From contig NW_003137827.1 in NCBI RefSeq assembly GCF_000003605.2, positions 238,067 to 260,960 on the forward strand: a stretch of DNA of 22,894 nt, read 5' to 3'. Origin of the DNA: Saccoglossus kowalevskii. Lineage: Eukaryota > Hemichordata > Enteropneusta > Harrimaniidae. The position numbers were made by a program, and so were the translations under genes. The notes below the pieces were generated by a model. The model saw nothing but the letters and a program-made list of their open reading frames with translations. It was not told where the DNA came from and made no database searches. Positions 4,831 to 14,790 of this stretch are shown here, in pieces; the stretch's first letter is position 1, and each line of letters opens with the position of its first letter.

Positions 4831-4834
4831 ACAT

Positions 4835-4840
4835 TTTATT
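4835..4840 (-). terminator. Polyadenylation signal AATAAA of the deiodinase-like gene
   Basis: The plus strand reads tttatt, so the minus strand has AATAAA. It lies about 95 nt beyond the distal SECIS-like element and sits at the start of the duplicated unit. The matching place in the other unit has lost the hexamer (AAAAATAG), so the duplication appears to have pushed the working 3' end outward and kept both stem-loops in the transcript. G/T-rich stretches follow downstream. Confidence 0.55.
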
Positions 4841-4934
4841 GTTAATCACATCTTAGTCGTAGACCTATACACGTCCACAATAGTTGAACATTATATTTGT
4901 AAACATAAATGTCTTTCAAATTAATAGATTCGTT

Positions 4935-4977
4935 ATCGGATTACAAGAAGTCAATATTTTTTCTTAATAATCGTCAT
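4935..4977 (-). promoter_or_regulatory. SECIS-like element, copy distal to the stop codon
   Basis: Same 43-nt core as the proximal copy; only two bases differ, both in the apical loop (AAAATATTGAC). This copy also has a 7-bp outer helix: ATTGATA upstream pairs with TATTAAT downstream, one G.U included, across an internal loop of about 8 nt on each side. By eye it is therefore the better-formed SECIS of the two. It lies about 790 nt past the stop and about 95 nt before the polyadenylation signal. Confidence 0.74.
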
Positions 4978-5181
4978 TATTCCATTATCAATGAATATAC
5001 TGCATAGACGTGTGTAGGTGTAGAATTAATCATGAAATACACTCTATTTTTGTTAATTACATCTAATTTCATCAATTCAATGTGTACCACTAATTCATAT
5101 ATCAAAGTCCAGGACCTATACACGTCCACAGTAGTTTGACATATCTTTCAGAGACATGTCCCTCAAAGTATTAGATTCGTT

Positions 5182-5224
5182 ATCGGATTACAAGAAGTCA
5201 ATGCTTTTTCTTAATAATCGTCAT
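5182..5224 (-). promoter_or_regulatory. SECIS-like element, copy proximal to the stop codon
   Basis: The minus strand reads ATGA, then C, a GATTA arm, TT, an AAGAA arm, an 11-nt loop AAAGCATTGAC, TTCTT, G, TAATC and CGAT. GATTA pairs with TAATC and AAGAA with TTCTT. The ATGA/CGAT pair supplies the tandem G.A core, and an A-run opens the apical loop 13 nt after ATGA, as SECIS elements require. It lies about 540 nt after the stop. The base before the 3' GA is C rather than the usual G or T. The outer helix is weak in this copy. SECIS elements direct selenocysteine insertion at UGA from the 3' untranslated region. Confidence 0.72.
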
Positions 5225-5762
5225 TATTCCAAGATCAATGACTATACTGCATAGACGTATGTAGGTACAAATTCCTTGCATATATGGTTGTACACACTAG
5301 TGTTAAAACTGTCTTTATAGTGATTGTCTTGCTGATGTACATAAAAATTCAAATATTACATTTTTTCACTGGTGCTCGGCATTTTGATAAAGTAATGATA
5401 TACACCAACAACTACTGATTGGTTATATTAAATCAAAGTTGCATTTTGCTTAAGTTGTCTTTTGCTGTAAAAAAAATGTCATGCGTACAATTTTATCTTA
5501 ATCTCATCTTGGACCAACTTAAATCATGGAATTACACAGATTCGGAATGATACAATGCATGCACACGATGACAAATATGTGAGTACTCTGAATAATTGTT
5601 TTAAGAAACAAAAAATGAAACGTTTTCAACACAATTTTACCAAAAGCGGGCAGATCAATGATAACCAGTTTAGTGACAATATGAATTCAAAATGGCACCA
5701 GCGAACTTACTAGACCTACAAAAACGGTGTCTTACTATGTATAGATTTACACCAGATTAATT

Positions 5763-6009
5763 TTATTCGTTCTGTGCTTCCATCCACTCACGAAGATCAG
5801 TTGTCAGGAGTTTATCAGGTGTTTTCATCTGTTGAACAATGTTGCGACCAGTGAAGGCAAGCTGACCATCTTTAATTGCCAGAGATCTATCTGGCCAACA
5901 CCAGAACGTCTCGTCAAATTTGTTGTCCATGTCGTCAACAACAACACGAACTTTGCTTGTATCGTAGGGGTCAGAGGTCACTGTATCAGGAATGATGTAC
6001 AGCAAATCT
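5763..6009 (-). CDS. dio: Deiodinase-like exon 4 with stop (residues 218-299)
   Basis: The acceptor reads TTATTCTGTAG (AG at 6011-6010). The first base, A, completes the split Arg codon AG|A. It encodes DLLYIIPDTVTSDPYDTSKV, the VVVDDMDN block, WPDRSLAIKDGQLAFTGRN and the C-terminal helix LREWMEAQNE, ending in TAA at 5763-5765. In vertebrate deiodinases the equivalent block is Val-Val-Val-Asp-x-Met-x-Asn followed by a Pro-Glu-Arg loop, so the match is close. AATAAA overlaps the stop codon. Confidence 0.92.
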
Positions 6010-9000
6010 CTACAGAATAAATAAACATTTTTGAATTAACACACATATTGTATTATGACGTATGTCACTTTTAGTCATCATATTGGAAATATGCAAACAC
6101 TGTTCCCCTTAAATTTTCAGCCAATCGCAACCTGACGTTTGTACTGAAATATTTGAATGTATAATGTATTATCTATTTAAACCTATAGTAGAACATTTTA
6201 ATCAAATTATAAATAACCATTTTTTTTTGAAAACCCATTTCTCCTTTTTCATTTTCCCATAATATGTGTTGGGCCAGTCAATGTCCCGTTTAGTAAGAAC
6301 ACATGTTCATCACAGGAATTTTCACTAATACTTCGGTGGTGAAGTGAAGACGGTGGGGTTGTGTATGCGTGAACTTGTGGTCGCGTGAGCCATTATCCAG
6401 CCATTGTTCAGAACACTTCATCATTTGTGTGATACCACGTGTTGCACCGTCCTTACGGTGAGGGAATGCAACGAGTGGTCGCGATGGTACATGTATTGTA
6501 TAAATGAGGTGTGCATTGTACATCTAGGTCGACATTCCATCTTTGATCATCGGAGCAAAATCTCAAAAGTCTGGCTTGTAACATGATGTAAACATTGGTA
6601 AAACAATACAGATGCTGTTAGCAGCAATGATGTACTCGATAAGTCCTTACCTGGCCCTGTCTATTCTTTCCTCAATCGTGATTGGTTGTTTAGCGTCACT
6701 GAACGTAGTGCCCATCTTCCAGCCCTCAGTTGAGTGTGCTTCCAAGATATAAACCAAAATGATATCCGCCTTATCTTTATAGTCCATGTAGAGGGCGTGT
6801 AGTGCACCACCGTGTACAATGCCCTGGTACAAACAGAAATAAGTAGAAAGTTGATCAACTGCCATCCAATATGGCCTCGTTTATGTTCCCTGCAGTGAAG
6901 TATTGTGATGAAGTCGATGGGCATATAATTATAATATTATCACGTGATCGAAAACATGTCCAGTATTAGCTGCAAATGCCTTCTAATTGATATCCCCCTG
7001 GTTATTAATACTTTGAAGTTATTCGCAGCAAACTACAAAAAATACCTCGCTTTATTTTACGCACAATTTCCAAATAACAAGAGGTCATTCGGCCGCTTCA
7101 GTAATACCACACGTGATAGAGGGACTGTGGTAAAACCTTCAAAATCGTTTTAAGAACTGATAGATAACTCAGTTTTAGACGTATAATAATGCATGTAAAA
7201 TGAAATGTTCACCCTAACAATGGTTGACATGATATAGTTTCAGCGAACCGAAGACCTCATTTGTCAACCGAAGCGAAGTCGTGGATAATATTAGTCTACG
7301 ACGTCACTCGAACAAGTGATATCAGGTGATAAACTTTGTATCACAAGACCAAATCTAAGTGTCAAATCGATAGAGAAATTGTTATTTTACGGAACTACGC
7401 TTACGAATCATGACGTCACGTCTAAGACCGTTGGTAGCCGACGCTTTCCCGAGTGTTATCAAGAATTTTTTACGCTACTGCCGCGTGATTTGATTTCCCA
7501 AACTGTTTGAGCACACTCAGACTGATGACGTTTGTCGTGCATATCGCCACATAAAAATTAAATATCAGGTCACTACTGTGAATGATATGCATCATGGCCA
7601 AGTAATTATACATAATCCCCGCCATCCCGAATCTGTGTGACGTCATCGTTGTATCTCCACATTGTGACGTCCCACCTCGGTGATGGCGAATCTGCATGTA
7701 TATTAAAGAACTATGTTTACCTATTAAGCACGAATCAGATTTGTACATTGCGATATGTGTCAATGTCTACCTCCATCCGGCTTTTACGGAAATAACTTTT
7801 CAAGGAGGCACGATGCGAGGCAATATTTTTAAAAACAAGCAAACTTGCCTTTACTATGTGACTATATTATTTGAGAGAAAATGTTGTTGCTTGTTCTTTC
7901 AGTCGAGCTTGTCTCATTAACTTGTCGGAGAAAGCGCAAGAGAGAAAAAAAGAAAAAAAAGGGAAACAGTCTGGAGCGTCGGAGCCACAACTGGGCGGAT
8001 TTGTGAAAGTAGTTGAACCGCCTGAATTTATAGTAGTTCATTGAGGGAAACAAATATTCAAGGAAAGACCTAATAAAAGTAAATCACTGCTCTAAAACTT
8101 GTTTTACTCATAGTTCTGTGCTCATATATTGCATTTGTTATCCTCTGGGAGATTGCCTTCTACGACTGAGTGTCACAATGTTTGTCGGTGTCATAACATA
8201 CATGTAATTATTATCTCCAACAACGGTCGACAGATATAAAGTGTTGTGACCCCAGCGCTCATCACACGTGTTCACGCTTCCTTTGATAGCCGCCGACACA
8301 CTGCTGATAGTCACGTGATGCAATAAACTACACACATACTAATAGTAAAGAACATGGCCCAGATAACTCTCTTACCGATAGCGGGGGTCAGCTCAATGAT
8401 GAGGCAATAATTAAAAGTGGTCGATCTTTGTTGATAATTAAATCAACCACGGGGATACGTTTTCCCGTTTCCATGGAAACTAACTCCACATCTTCCGGTA
8501 CTTTATCTCCGAGTGCGACCCTGGGTTTGCGATTTGGTAGCATTCTTTCCGGCACTTCGAGTATACCCTTGAGCTTGCCAACAACCTGTGAATAAATATA
8601 AATCGTCAATAGTAAAATCTAAAATTCATTGAAGATACAATGTAACTGCAAGTATTACTGTTTGATACTGTATAATGACAGAAACCTTTGACTAGGATTT
8701 ATCACTGAAACTGAAAATGCTGTGTGTGTTTTTTTTTTGCAGCGCCTACCTGGGTATTCGTACGATAAAACCATAACATTCTCTAATGCGCATGTGCACT
8801 GGTACATCCAATAACAATGCGCTGGAGTATAAGTTTTGATTTGTCGTCCAACAAATAATGTTATGTCTTATCTTCAAACGCAACATTACAGTTGATGATA
8901 AATCATAATCCAATTTCGTCTACAGGATGACGTAACCAACAACAATTGTCCATCTTACATCTGTTGAGTCACTAATTACATCTGCACCCTCTATTTCCAA

Positions 9001-9318
9001 ATAAATAAATAAAACAATACGACCCACCGCGCGATTCCCAATACATACCTCAGGGTCATCTGCGAAATTGATGACTGCGACACTTTCTATCATCGCATCG
9101 TCTGGAATTTGACTCGTCTCGACCCCGGCATCCTTCAGTGCCTGTTTCGTAAAATGAACATGAATATCTGACATTGCCCTGACAACATCGGGTTTGGTAG
9201 GGTCAGCCTTCTCATTGAACATCTTCTGATACGCGTCTGATTTGCTGAGTTCCTTGTATCTATCGATGGCCTTTATAATCAATGATTTGTTTTTGGTGAA
9301 GTGATCTGCTTCAGCCAT
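5763..9318 (-). CDS. dio: Iodothyronine-deiodinase-like selenoprotein, four coding exons
   Basis: Coding exons on the minus strand are 9318-9049, 8585-8376, 6823-6651 and 6009-5763, giving 299 residues plus TAA. The family has a thioredoxin fold and removes iodine reductively from iodothyronines with a selenocysteine. Seen here: residues 91-160 lead into the active site, with TGA as residue 156 in Ser-Leu-Ser-Sec-Pro-Pro-Leu. Next come residues 180-195, the ADIILVYILEAHSTEGW stretch (Glu188, His190, Trp195). EERIDRAR follows at 211-218, VVVDDMDN at 240-247, and WPDRSLAIKDGQLAFTG at 256-272. Introns are phase 0, 0 and 2, all GT/AG, and the frame is kept throughout. The ATG at 9316-9318 has G at -3 and +4. 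The N-terminus is hydrophilic with no membrane anchor, unlike vertebrate DIO1-3. The second catalytic His (DIO1 His174) aligns with Pro207. The family assignment is firm; the substrate and orthology to any one vertebrate type are not. Confidence 0.92.
6010..6650 (-). other. Intron 3 of the deiodinase-like gene
   Basis: 641 bases, GTAAGG...CTGTAG, phase 2. The short open frames at 6290-6523 (minus) and 6404-6586 (plus) overlap here and look like chance frames. Confidence 0.88.
6651..6823 (-). CDS. dio: Deiodinase-like exon 3 (residues 161-218)
   Basis: The acceptor reads TTTGTACCAG (AG at 6825-6824) and the donor GCCAG|GTAAGG (GT at 6650-6649). The 173 bases enter in phase 0 and leave two bases of an Arg codon. 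It encodes GIVHGGALHALYMDYKDK, then the central strand ADIILVYI, then LEAHSTEGW. This is the family's second active-site block (Glu188 and His190 match the catalytic Glu/His of DIO1). ITIEERIDRAR follows and matches the family's LxxR helix. Confidence 0.92.
6824..8375 (-). other. Intron 2 of the deiodinase-like gene
   Basis: 1552 bases, GTAAGA...TACCAG, phase 0. This is the largest intron and it directly follows the selenocysteine codon exon. Several short open frames inside it have no recognisable product. A cluster of CRE-like TGACGTCA sites lies at 7300-7670. Confidence 0.88.
8376..8585 (-). CDS. dio: Deiodinase-like exon 2 with the selenocysteine codon (residues 91-160)
   Basis: The acceptor reads TTTATTCACAG (AG at 8587-8586) and the donor TCG|GTAAGA (GT at 8375-8374), phase 0 at both ends. 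It encodes VVGKLKGILEVPERMLPN..., then the linker before the thioredoxin-fold strand (IPVVDLIINKDRPLLIIASS). The TGA lies 15 bases before the donor and is followed by CCC CCG. Conventional gene finders would stop here and either truncate the protein or skip the remaining exons. Confidence 0.92.
8388..8390 (-). other. In-frame TGA read as selenocysteine (residue 156)
   Basis: The minus strand reads TTG AGC TGA CCC CCG CTA TCG then the donor GTAAG. In deiodinases the active-site selenocysteine is followed by Pro-Pro or Pro-Ser, exactly as here. The coding sense continues in two downstream exons with family motifs, which argues against TGA being a real stop. The residue two before Sec is Leu; DIO1 has Cys there and DIO2 has Ala. 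Confidence 0.92.
8586..9048 (-). other. Intron 1 of the deiodinase-like gene
   Basis: 463 bases, GTATGT...CACAG, phase 0. AT-rich with no coding signal on either strand. Confidence 0.88.
9049..9318 (-). CDS. dio: Deiodinase-like exon 1 (residues 1-90)
   Basis: Begins MAEADHFTKNKSL and ends ...NFADDPE at a donor reading GAG|GTATGT (GT at 9048-9047), phase 0. The whole exon is charged and looks helical. No hydrophobic run could serve as a signal peptide or the N-terminal membrane anchor typical of vertebrate deiodinases. The reading frame stays open for some distance upstream without another ATG, so an added upstream coding exon cannot be fully excluded. The ATG at 9318 is the first in frame. 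Confidence 0.85.
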
Positions 9319-9770: not shown

Positions 9771-9964
9771 AGAGCAGAGTATAAAGTGGGTGGGGGAGGG
9801 GGGTGATTCCAACCATAACTCATAACCTCAATCACAACCACCGCCACTACAATATCGGTTCTGGAATCCACTTTTGGCTCCCGAGGTTGAGGGGGTGATA
9901 TAAAGTTCATTTCTAGCATTCGTTAGGTTATCAAATGGATATTGATAATAATAATGACCAAATT

Positions 9965-10645
9965 CACCCCAAACAAGTTATCCATGCTGCAGTCGTCATC
10001 TCTGGTCCCTTTGCCCACGTAATCAATTGTTCACTGAGCCAAGGAAAATGTCCTGACCCCCTCAAGGTTGCAAAAATTACCCCAATCTTCAAAAAAGTTT
10101 CAGTAACAAATGTCAGTAATTATCGTCCAATTTCCATTTTACCAATTTTTAGCAAAATTTATTGACTATTTAGAAAAAAAAAATATACACCCAATTTGGT
10201 TTTCGTAAAAACACAGTCCTAAGCTGGCTCTTGCAGACTAACACAGACATAGCTGCAAAACTTGACTAAGGATTCATCACTTTTGGCATTATTTTGATCT
10301 CAAAAAGGACTTCGACACTATTAATCATGACATCCTTATTTCCAAATTAGAGCATTATGGCATTAGGGGGCTCCCCTTTCATGGTTTAGAAACTATCTTT
10401 ACAATCGCCACCAATCAGTTACTTTAAATAACGTTTCATCGTCATACACTCTAATTAAATGTGGCGTCCCTCGAGGTACAGGGTCCTATTTTATTTCTAG
10501 TCTATATTAATGATATTGCAAATTTAACTAACGCATCATATTAATTGGAAACCCCACATTGACAAAGTCAGGAAAGTAGTTGCCCCCAAAGTTGGAATCA
10601 TTTCTCAAATTCGTCACTATGTTCCTAAATATATATTTCTCCATC
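9965..10645 (+). pseudogene. Decayed non-LTR retrotransposon reverse-transcriptase fragment
   Basis: The first open part (to 10165) encodes HVINCSLSQGKCPDPLKVAK, then ITPIFKK and NYRPISILPIFSKIY, the conserved N-terminal block of LINE reverse transcriptases. After the stop, shifted frames still show QFGFRKN, a DxxKDFDTINHDIL block (motif A aspartate), WFRNYLYNRHQSVTL and CGVPRGT (motif B), then INDIANLTNAS. The catalytic FADD block is deleted: the sequence jumps to NWKPHIDKVRKVVAPKVG. Stops and frameshifts make it dead. It ends abruptly where the next repeat starts. Confidence 0.85.
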
Positions 10646-11966: not shown

Positions 11967-12730
11967 AACCTTTGTTAGATTGGTTCATAATGTGTTTTAA
12001 TTACAAAGGAAGTCTTTATTTTTTTTAAATGACTTAAACTGTTCTTTCATTAGATTGGCTAAATTAGCAAAACAAGTTGTTGGAATGATAATAATAATAA
12101 ACTAACCATGGGTAAAACAATTATTGGATTACAACAGTGATTCCAAAAAATATTTATAATAAAACAAAATACCACGCAGCACTGGCCTATATCGAAAGTG
12201 CTGTCCCGTCCACTCATTCAAGTAGTTGTAGGATGAGAGGACACCATTTAACTAAATGGAATATTTTGAGAGTGTGTAAATGGCGAAATCCATTAAATAC
12301 TACCATTAGACTGACAGTGGCTAATACCGACATTTGCTTTACACGGACGTGCTCTCATCACAATATGGTGTATACGCGCATTATTGTAATAACGGTAGAA
12401 TATTTAATGGTTGCGCCATCTGGCACATTACGGTAATTAAACCTGGCACGTGCTGTAATGATGACGAACTCTGTAAAATCATTTGGATTTTGTACTGGGC
12501 ATTAAACATCCATTAACAAGGTAGAAATCAACGTAAAAATAGACGAGTAAAACAAATGTTTGAGGAAGTAGTTTGTGACGTAAACGCTATTCATTTGCAT
12601 ATTATATCGATTACTCTTTTCAGTACCTCGAATAGAAAACGCGCGCGTCTTTGGAACGTTTTCTCGGGTTTCGCGCATTGCATCAATAGAAAAGGTCGAC
12701 ATAGCATATTTTATGGTCGTTCTGCCAAGG

Positions 12731-14236
12731 TCTGTGACCCCACCAGAAACAACAATATATACTATATTACTATTACTATCATTGTAATTACTACTATTAT
12801 TAATTTTAGTATTTATTTATAATTGTTTACTCCATGTATACACTGTTTCTGGTGAAATACATTTCATTGGATCATGTTAAAAATAATTAGCATAAGTATC
12901 GCCAAATAATGTGACGTATGCATTCAGTTTATTAGGTTTTGACGTGCGCTAATTTTAGTAACTAAGAGAATGCGATCGACACAATTTGTAGTAACGCACG
13001 GCATATTTTGTAATAAATAAACTTCGTTATTTTATGATAAGTTGCTACGCAACATGTGTATATTTGCAAAGCACAGTAATATAGTTGTCCAATAAAAACA
13101 AGCCAATGCAAGAATTAGTATGTAAACGTAAAAACGGGAATGAGTGTAAACGACGGATGCGGGTAACAATCTGTGATGACATCGGCAATAAGTCCATTTC
13201 CAATTCCATACTCTATCGTTTCCCATGATGCTTAGAGAGAGGTCACGCTACGTATAGTACATATATAAATAAACATTTGGTACAGAAAGCAGCACTGAAA
13301 CAAGTACTATACACAGCAAGCTCTGTTGTTTTTTTTCAGAAACCAGCCATTTAAGGTGAGTTTTCTCAATATTTTCCAATGTGATTAACTTAAAGAGCGG
13401 CAGTCGTCGCGCCGCGTCTTGTTCGATATGGAATTCATAGCGACGTATACAACACGTGTAAAATACACGTAAAAATTATTTACATGAAATTCGAACATGC
13501 GCTGCGCGACGACCACCGCGCTTTAAACCTTTGTTAGATTGGTTCATAATGTGTTTTAATTACAAAGGAAGTCTTTATTTTTTTTAAATGACTTAAATTG
13601 TTCATTCATTAGATTGGCTAAATTAGCAAAACAAGTTGTTGGAATGATAATAATCATAAACTAACCATGAGTAAAACAATTATTGGATTACAACAGTGAT
13701 TCCAAAAAATATTTATAATAAAACAAAATACCACGCAGCACTGGCCTATATCGAAAGTGCTGTACTGTCCACTCATTCAAGTAGTTGTAGAATGAGAGGA
13801 CACCATTTAACTAAATGAAATATTTTGAGTGTGTAAATGGCGAAATCCATTAAATACTACCATTAGACTGACAGTGGCTAATATCGACATTTGCTTTACA
13901 CGGACGTGCTCTCATCACAATATGGTGTATACGCGCACATTGTAATAACGATAGAATAATTAGCGGTTGTGCCATATGGCACATTACGGTAACTAAACCT
14001 GGCACGTGCTGTAATGATGACGAACTTTGTAAAATCATTTGGATTTTGTACTGGGCATTAAACATCAATTAACAAGGTAGAAATCAACGTAAAAATAGAC
14101 GAGTAAAACAAATTTTTGAGGAAGTATTTTGTGGCGTAAACGCTATTCATTTGCATATTATCAGTACCTCGAATAGAAAACGCGCGCGTCTTTGGAACGT
14201 TTTCTCGCATTACATCAATAGAAAAGGTCGACATAG
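12731..14236 (+). repeat. Large tandem duplication, copy 2
   Basis: Second copy, about 40 bases longer. It keeps CACCAGAAACA near its start and the inverted TGTTTCTGGTG around 12844, an 11-bp inverted pair absent from copy 1. Its minus frame 13032-13226 matches copy 1's with a two-codon insertion; this follows from the high identity and is not evidence of coding. Confidence 0.88.
13391..13526. mobile_element. GC-rich inverted-arm (MITE-like) element in duplication copy 2
   Basis: Duplicate of the element in copy 1, carried along by the large duplication; a few internal changes, including a small insertion near 13470. Confidence 0.55.
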
Positions 14237-14253
14237 TCGGCATTTGCACAACT

Positions 14254-14790
14254 GGTCGACGTTTTTCCCGAGTTTGTTTTATCACGTATTAATTTGTAAG
14301 AAGTTGTCCAAAGTATGTTGAAATATTTGAGTAAGTGCAAATGTTAATCTTATTATATCTTAGATAGAGTTCCACTCAGTTTATTTTTTTTTATTTTTAT
14401 TTTTTGGTAGACCAAAATAGTTGCAATGCAAAAATGGGACCCTTTCAGTTTGTATTCGATGTAGGATGGCTGTCAAATCACGCGACTCATCGCAATCATC
14501 TCTTTTTATATTCAATACAATTAGTATATATATGTTACACAAATTTTTGACCTAAATTTTATGTCGCTTGAGCGAACGAAAATGACTTTGGCGTTTCACA
14601 TGGGTATTTTTTGGGAAAAATCCAACATAGCGACAAAAGTAACACAATTGCTAGAGATTGTAAAAGTACGTGATATACAAATTTCAGATTTATATAATCC
14701 CTTTTACTAGCGGATCGCTTATGTTACCCGAAGGCAAACCCCGCGTTTATACCAACAAAAAAAAACAAAAAAAACAACCGTAGTGTCATG
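14254..14790. other. No gene recognised
   Basis: AT-rich with T- and A-runs (about 14385-14405 and 14756-14776). No feature seen. Confidence 0.55.

Follow-up and report, generated by a model that had tools for sequence, protein, structure and literature searches.

Our analysis finds, on the minus strand of the window (the whole stretch of 22,894 nt analysed, C2921:238067-260960), a deiodinase-like gene whose 3' flank holds a tandem duplication with unevenly conserved parts, a module shared with related loci of the same genome, and a poly(A) signal behind only one of the two copies. We think it likely that this is a single-UGA gene with two duplicated SECIS modules, of which the distal one is probably the main element and the proximal one probably weaker or conditional. 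Why a gene with a single selenocysteine (Sec) codon keeps two SECIS elements is the question here, and the same genome offers two single-copy relatives against which the pair can be set. Genome searches covered the 572-Mb assembly; all features of the gene and its 3' flank described below lie on the minus strand.

The gene consists of four intact exons with AG/GT splice sites: exon 1 (9049-9318), which opens with the start ATG and runs as an open frame to a GT donor, exon 2 (8376-8585), exon 3 (6651-6823) and exon 4 (5763-6009), which terminates in the stop TAA of the gene model. Its 299 codons contain a single in-frame TGA, codon 156 in exon 2 (8388-8390), in the context SSLS-U-PPLS. The encoded protein matches the Pfam family T4_deiodinase (PF00837) over residues 110-296 with 56.7 bits (cut-off 27) and an E-value of 2.8e-15; the deiodinase-family context of the original prediction, with its single putative Sec codon, is borne out; a search of PDB chains with the same protein returned Dio3 (E 5.7e-06) and Dio2 (E 1.3e-04). 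Approximately residues 1-109, encoded by 9318-9049 and 8585-8530, matched no Pfam family at E-values up to 10, and residues 63-115 weakly match ubiquitin-conjugating enzymes in the PDB search (E 0.012).

Four deiodinase-like genes, that of the window and those on contigs C4558, C1606 and C1465, share a TGA at this position with PP behind it, and we infer that it is read as Sec in them. Exon 4 of the window gene differs from the copy associated with L003, one of the related units described below, with dN 0.145 and dS 0.59, and from the L004 paralogue with dN 0.209 and dS 0.728; judged by these values, the coding sequence behind the TGA is under purifying selection. Both the low dN relative to dS in exon 4 and the shared position of the TGA in the four genes count as support for a selenoprotein gene. 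Since tRNA-Sec genes are also found in the genome, the deiodinase match and the conserved TGA make it most likely that the window gene encodes a selenoprotein and hence needs a SECIS. Further deiodinase-like matches were noted at L031 (C1606), L033 (C1465) and L032 (C1267) and on C2222, and the C1606 gene has a SECIS candidate of its own at L031:3492-3558.

Two stem-loop units had been described from the sequence, with 60-base blocks differing at two positions, both apical. This is confirmed at 5231-5172 (proximal) and 4984-4925 (distal), which are identical except for two adjacent mismatches in the apical loop. In the genome sequence the two elements lie 539 and 786 nt past the stop codon; the copies are spaced 247-251 nt start to start (247 nt for the blocks, with 187 nt separating them). 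A pattern scan places the quartet strands at ATGA 5224-5221 and CGAT 5185-5182 in the proximal copy and at ATGA 4977-4974 and CGAT 4938-4935 in the distal one. Both copies thus read AUGAC on the 5' side and CGAU on the 3' side, as in an AUGA/NGAN quartet with tandem G-A pairs, and both have AAA on the 5' side of the apical loop, where AA or CC is looked for. Helix II of eukaryotic SECIS elements has about 10-13 pairs from the quartet to the apical loop; here it has 11 in each copy (12 versus 11 nt), and its lower part forms with a mean pair probability of 0.98 in the proximal and 0.68 in the distal copy. Helix I can form 7 of 7 pairs in the distal copy and in L003, 6 of 7 in the proximal copy and 5 of 7 in L004, with predicted probabilities of 0.39, 0.8, 0.0 and 0.14, respectively.

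When both strands of the window were searched for a simple SECIS pattern (ATGA, a helix of 10 or more pairs, AA at the loop, NGAN), three places came up: the two copies, with 11 pairs each, and a weaker 10-pair pattern at 5072-5029, which sits between them on the minus strand. In shuffled windows 11-pair places turn up 0.11 times per window and 10-pair places 0.74 times, so the third place is expected by chance. When the 3' regions of the related loci were scanned at 10 pairs or more, only the module cores appeared in L003 (11 pairs) and L004 (10 pairs); in the 3' region of the window gene the cores are the only 11-pair candidates, the one further match being the 10-pair pattern between them.

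The SECIS-like reading of the original prediction stands on pattern, place and conservation; what it did not gain is a covariance-model match. Rfam SECIS_1 found neither the proximal nor the distal copy, an outcome that had been named beforehand as one that would refute the prediction. This silence says little, since the candidate of the C1606 deiodinase-like gene (L031) also lies far under the cut-off of 35, at 16.9 bits. Three other places in the genome (L045, L046 and L047) exceed this cut-off, and together with L031 they made up a home-made covariance model of four SECIS candidates. With it one window copy scored 13.1 bits (E 1, rank 4 of 18) and the other 12.0 bits (E 1.9, rank 7), neither of which is significant, L004 scored 14.4 and L003 10.1 bits, and the distal copy was aligned in the expected register. 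Near-matches to the Rfam families MIR6027, snoR120, mcrA and sn668 fell far under their cut-offs and were discarded. We regard the SECIS assignment as a candidate one argued from pattern, place and conservation, with the covariance models neither for nor against it.

The duplication has not been conserved evenly along its length. Between the copies, 7 of 106 sites differ in the outer arms and SECIS, against 45 of 107 in the flanks and the side-hairpin region (Fisher test, 8.6e-10; ungapped sites with gap columns dropped, 16 alignment columns, 67-82, belonging to neither class), in agreement with the earlier remark that the flanks had diverged far more. That cores and outer stems were kept while the rest drifted speaks against simple decay. 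Genome searches with the distal unit, with the C4558 unit and with the proximal unit plus flanks each led to the same four places, a count that is a lower bound (at least four): the two in the window, L003 (C2921:224959-225070) and L004 (C4558:70520-70632). Every one of the four sits behind a deiodinase terminal exon. A dispersed repeat or transposon, the alternative against which the original prediction was to be checked, therefore fails, as all three queries led, on these lower-bound counts, to places behind deiodinase exons.

L004 follows a paralogue on C4558 that matches all four exons including the TGA; in front of L003 there is a copy of exon 4 only. This lone exon (L005, C2921:225784-226026) lies about 18 kb downstream of the window gene and is intact: it has an AG acceptor, an unbroken frame, a dN of 0.145 and a phase that fits window exon 3. 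With 76% protein identity to window exon 4 and a dS of 0.59 it is not allelic, and L003 was rejected as a haplotype or assembly copy. Exons 1-3 were not found for L003 in the sequence retrieved to the left and right of an 8.7-kb N run (C2921:229388-238066); this run could hide the first three exons of a second gene, and the L003 exon is either an alternative terminal exon or part of a separate gene. Over the module, the proximal copy differs from the distal one at 21 of 151 sites and from L003 at 5 of 151. Informative sites group proximal with L003 and distal with L004 in 11 cases, the alternative groupings having 2 and 0. Read as a tree, this would place the SECIS duplication before that of exon 4 (dS 0.59) and imply loss of the second copy from L003. 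The same site pattern may instead have arisen through gene conversion involving the window 3' region and L003.

What is conserved extends beyond the SECIS core to a module of about 152 nt, in which the SECIS arm and a side hairpin are enclosed by an outer stem formed by CCUACAyACGUCUAUGCAGUA paired with UACUGUGGACGUGUAUAGG. The proximal module (5115-5265) has a predicted fold of -42.5 kcal/mol (z -4.33) and the distal one (4864-5018) of -33.0 kcal/mol (z -3.09), with 0 of 200 shuffles as good in either case; for L003 and L004 the z values are -2.32 (2 of 200) and -2.65 (3 of 200). These values depend on the cut, since moving the ends by some bases gives -3.85, -1.93, -0.66 and -1.93 for the four units. 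Cuts drawn short around the SECIS cores show no folding signal, with z from 0.23 to -0.98. In the predicted folds the side hairpin occupies 5138-5160 in the proximal and 4887-4913 in the distal module, where its sequence differs and its pairing is kept. The outer-arm duplex reaches -19.9 to -21.7 kcal/mol in the four units, values attained by 14, 9, 16 and 0 of 2000 shuffles. Across the four units 94.3% of cells are paired, against 33.7 to 50.6% when the pairing is slid. Shuffles equalled the four-unit covariation score in 13 of 500 cases, the fraction paired in 55 and the double changes in 74; with only four sequences such pair statistics are weak and appear only mildly favourable to the module. 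In the fold predicted for the L031 candidate, helix I is long and plain.

When the full 3' flank is folded, the arms of each outer stem pair within their own copy, with 17.6 and 16.1 expected pairs. For the trimmed segment 5275-4850 a domain-swapped fold was seen, the arms of either copy pairing with those of the other; it was gone at 5320-4820 and 5763-4815, and was rejected; the summed outer-arm energies are the same, -40.2, for own-copy and swapped pairing. A branched outer stem of this kind exceeds the usual picture of a SECIS, and reporters built with minimal elements would miss it.

An AATAAA poly(A) signal lies behind the distal module at 4835-4840 and at the corresponding positions of L003 and L004; it is absent behind the proximal module, which at the matching place reads AAAAATAG. 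The originally proposed span, 4831-5275, fits the SECIS pair together with this signal. Between the stop codon and 4840-4835 we found no AATAAA or ATTAAA except one overlapping the stop (5767-5762). It appears that the module was duplicated together with its poly(A) signal and that the proximal signal has since been lost. As only the distal AATAAA remains, transcripts should run to 4840-4835 and would then carry both SECIS elements, an extent predicted from the genome sequence.

The two copies part company in the predicted accessibility of their cores. All four units have a UCAUU upstream that is able to base-pair with the AAUGA at the quartet, and in the full 3' flank this hairpin has a predicted probability of 0.99 in the proximal and 0.06 in the distal copy. 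Keeping the quartet open within the module costs 6.0 kcal/mol in the proximal copy, against 0.0 in the distal copy and L003 and 0.5 in L004; among the SECIS candidates taken as controls, namely the three Rfam matches and L031, the cost is 0.0 (L045), 2.2 (L046), 1.0 (L047) and 0.0-1.6 kcal/mol (L031). With 25-nt flanks the costs become 4.7 (proximal), 0.6 (distal), 0.0 (L003) and 2.6 (L004), so overall 6.0 kcal/mol for the proximal copy stands against 0-2.6 for seven other SECIS elements or candidates. Folding with letter swaps traced the masking hairpin to the stretch 5233-5242, bounded by C5233 and G5242, which favour it: the L003 letter at both positions lowers the proximal cost to 0.0, and at one alone to 2.1 or 0.7 kcal/mol. 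This suggests that the core of the proximal copy is partly locked, a model-based effect that may be overstated, as energy models give no credit to the non-Watson-Crick quartet or to a bound protein. In prediction it takes two letters to turn an open SECIS into a masked one, which makes the role of masking directly testable.

These observations can be assembled into a working scheme. A module of about 250 nt including the poly(A) signal would have been duplicated in tandem, giving two SECIS elements in the 3' UTR, each of them (helix I, internal loop, UGAN/NGAN quartet, helix II and apical AAA) displayed atop a long outer stem that is accompanied by a side hairpin. A SECIS-binding protein would grip the quartet and bring eEFSec with Sec-tRNA to UGA 156. 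After loss of the proximal poly(A) signal, the mRNA would extend to 4840-4835 and include both elements. The distal copy, predicted to be open, would probably be the main element, and the proximal copy, whose AUGA is predicted to be buried in the UCAUU/AAUGA hairpin, probably a weaker or conditional one.

Other readings of the same facts have to be weighed. It is possible, if doubtful, that the proximal copy is a remnant in the course of being lost and only the distal one matters, as the text of PMC3473315 proposed for amphioxus DI_b, where a single SECIS is argued to suffice for a single UGA. The C-U mismatch in proximal helix I, the predicted masking of the core and the want of a poly(A) signal of its own are what such a leftover could look like; its core, outer stem and loop AAA are nevertheless intact, and the 5 of 151 differences from L003, set beside an exon-4 dS of 0.59, are hard to reconcile with neutral decay unless the region was converted. 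That both copies are instead fully active and additive, the second SECIS raising insertion at the one UGA or sustaining it at low selenium, seems unlikely to us. The 60-base blocks are indeed identical outside the apical loop, and the site topology (11 against 2 and 0) dates the duplication before that of exon 4 (dS 0.59), so that both copies would have been kept long; however, the two proximal letters are predicted to switch the core from open to masked (6.0 kcal/mol, and 0.0 with the L003 letters), and gene conversion between the clustered window and L003 3' regions may account for the topology.

We give very little weight to the view that the module is some other 3'-UTR element, serving protein binding or RNA processing, that holds a SECIS-like hairpin incidentally. 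The covariance models give no support to a SECIS and conservation reaches well past its core, yet the gene needs a SECIS, and the module cores are the sole candidates with at least 10 pairs in the L003 and L004 3' regions and the sole 11-pair ones in that of the window gene. A further reading seems improbable: a regulated pair in which the open distal copy provides basal Sec insertion and the self-masked proximal copy is opened under some condition, such as selenium level or a binding protein, to raise it, combined with a possible choice between the two-module terminal exon and the single-module L003 one. If it were true, splicing between phase-compatible terminal exons would set SECIS dose and C-terminus together.

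A single Sec codon with two SECIS elements is already known from a few animals, which the original prediction overlooked in taking selenoprotein P as the classic case. The closest precedent is Branchiostoma floridae DI_b, described in the text of PMC3473315 as a clustered deiodinase with one TGA and two strong SECIS elements downstream, a layout that the present gene, with its two SECIS candidates, shares. Uneven copying during duplication was proposed there, one of the two elements was called unnecessary, and the extra amphioxus SECIS was suggested to have no current function and to be liable to loss; Nematostella Gpx_a and amphioxus SelP_a are also listed with two (PMC3473315). Unlike DI_b as that text describes it, the unit found here includes an outer stem, a side hairpin and a poly(A) signal, and how unevenly the copies are conserved has been measured, the comparison being one of descriptions. 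Ciona intestinalis SelW1, with one Sec codon and two predicted SECIS elements in a single 3' UTR, belongs to another protein family and has form II elements with a mini-helix by the account in PMC2874816, whereas our copies are near-identical and have form I-like loops without one. In human Sep15, as cited in PMC2874816, one Sec codon is accompanied by two SECIS candidates, the upstream one reported nonfunctional; the inactive copy is not described in that text as a conserved duplicate. Selenoprotein P carries two SECIS elements in one 3' UTR exon, 334 nt apart on average in vertebrates and with distinct roles inferred from mutant mice according to PMC5133445 and PMC3316567; it has many Sec codons, in contrast to the one TGA in 299 codons here, where the copies stand 247 nt start to start. 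In the open-access literature we found no SECIS set in a branched outer stem and duplicated whole, no self-masking SECIS copy and nothing under tandem or duplicated SECIS wording, while SECIS together with three-way junction occurred only as a phrase in a cited title on H/ACA RNAs. Our results suggest that the present locus adds to the known cases a larger conserved fold and one partly locked copy, the latter as predicted by folding.

Some other features of the genome and window should be mentioned. The search for tRNA-Sec gave 11 matches above the Rfam cut-off, ten on an 11-kb contig (L048, C1591:112-9534) and one at L034 (C4068:252344). The ten are located inside or around a tandem repeat (1,299 bp, 5.1 copies), and ARAGORN calls seven of them. 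Eukaryotes normally have one or very few tRNA-Sec genes, and eleven are predicted in a diatom, as stated in PMC5330540. On the plus strand of the window, frames at 12517-12822 and 14073-14321 share a similar start, QGRNQRKNRRVKQ...NAIHLHIIS, and form a repeat about 1.56 kb apart that is perhaps a mobile element. A short plus-strand frame at 9917-10165 encodes the peptide PLKVAKITPIFKK...NYRPISILPIFSKIY, which we take to resemble a fragment of a LINE reverse transcriptase.
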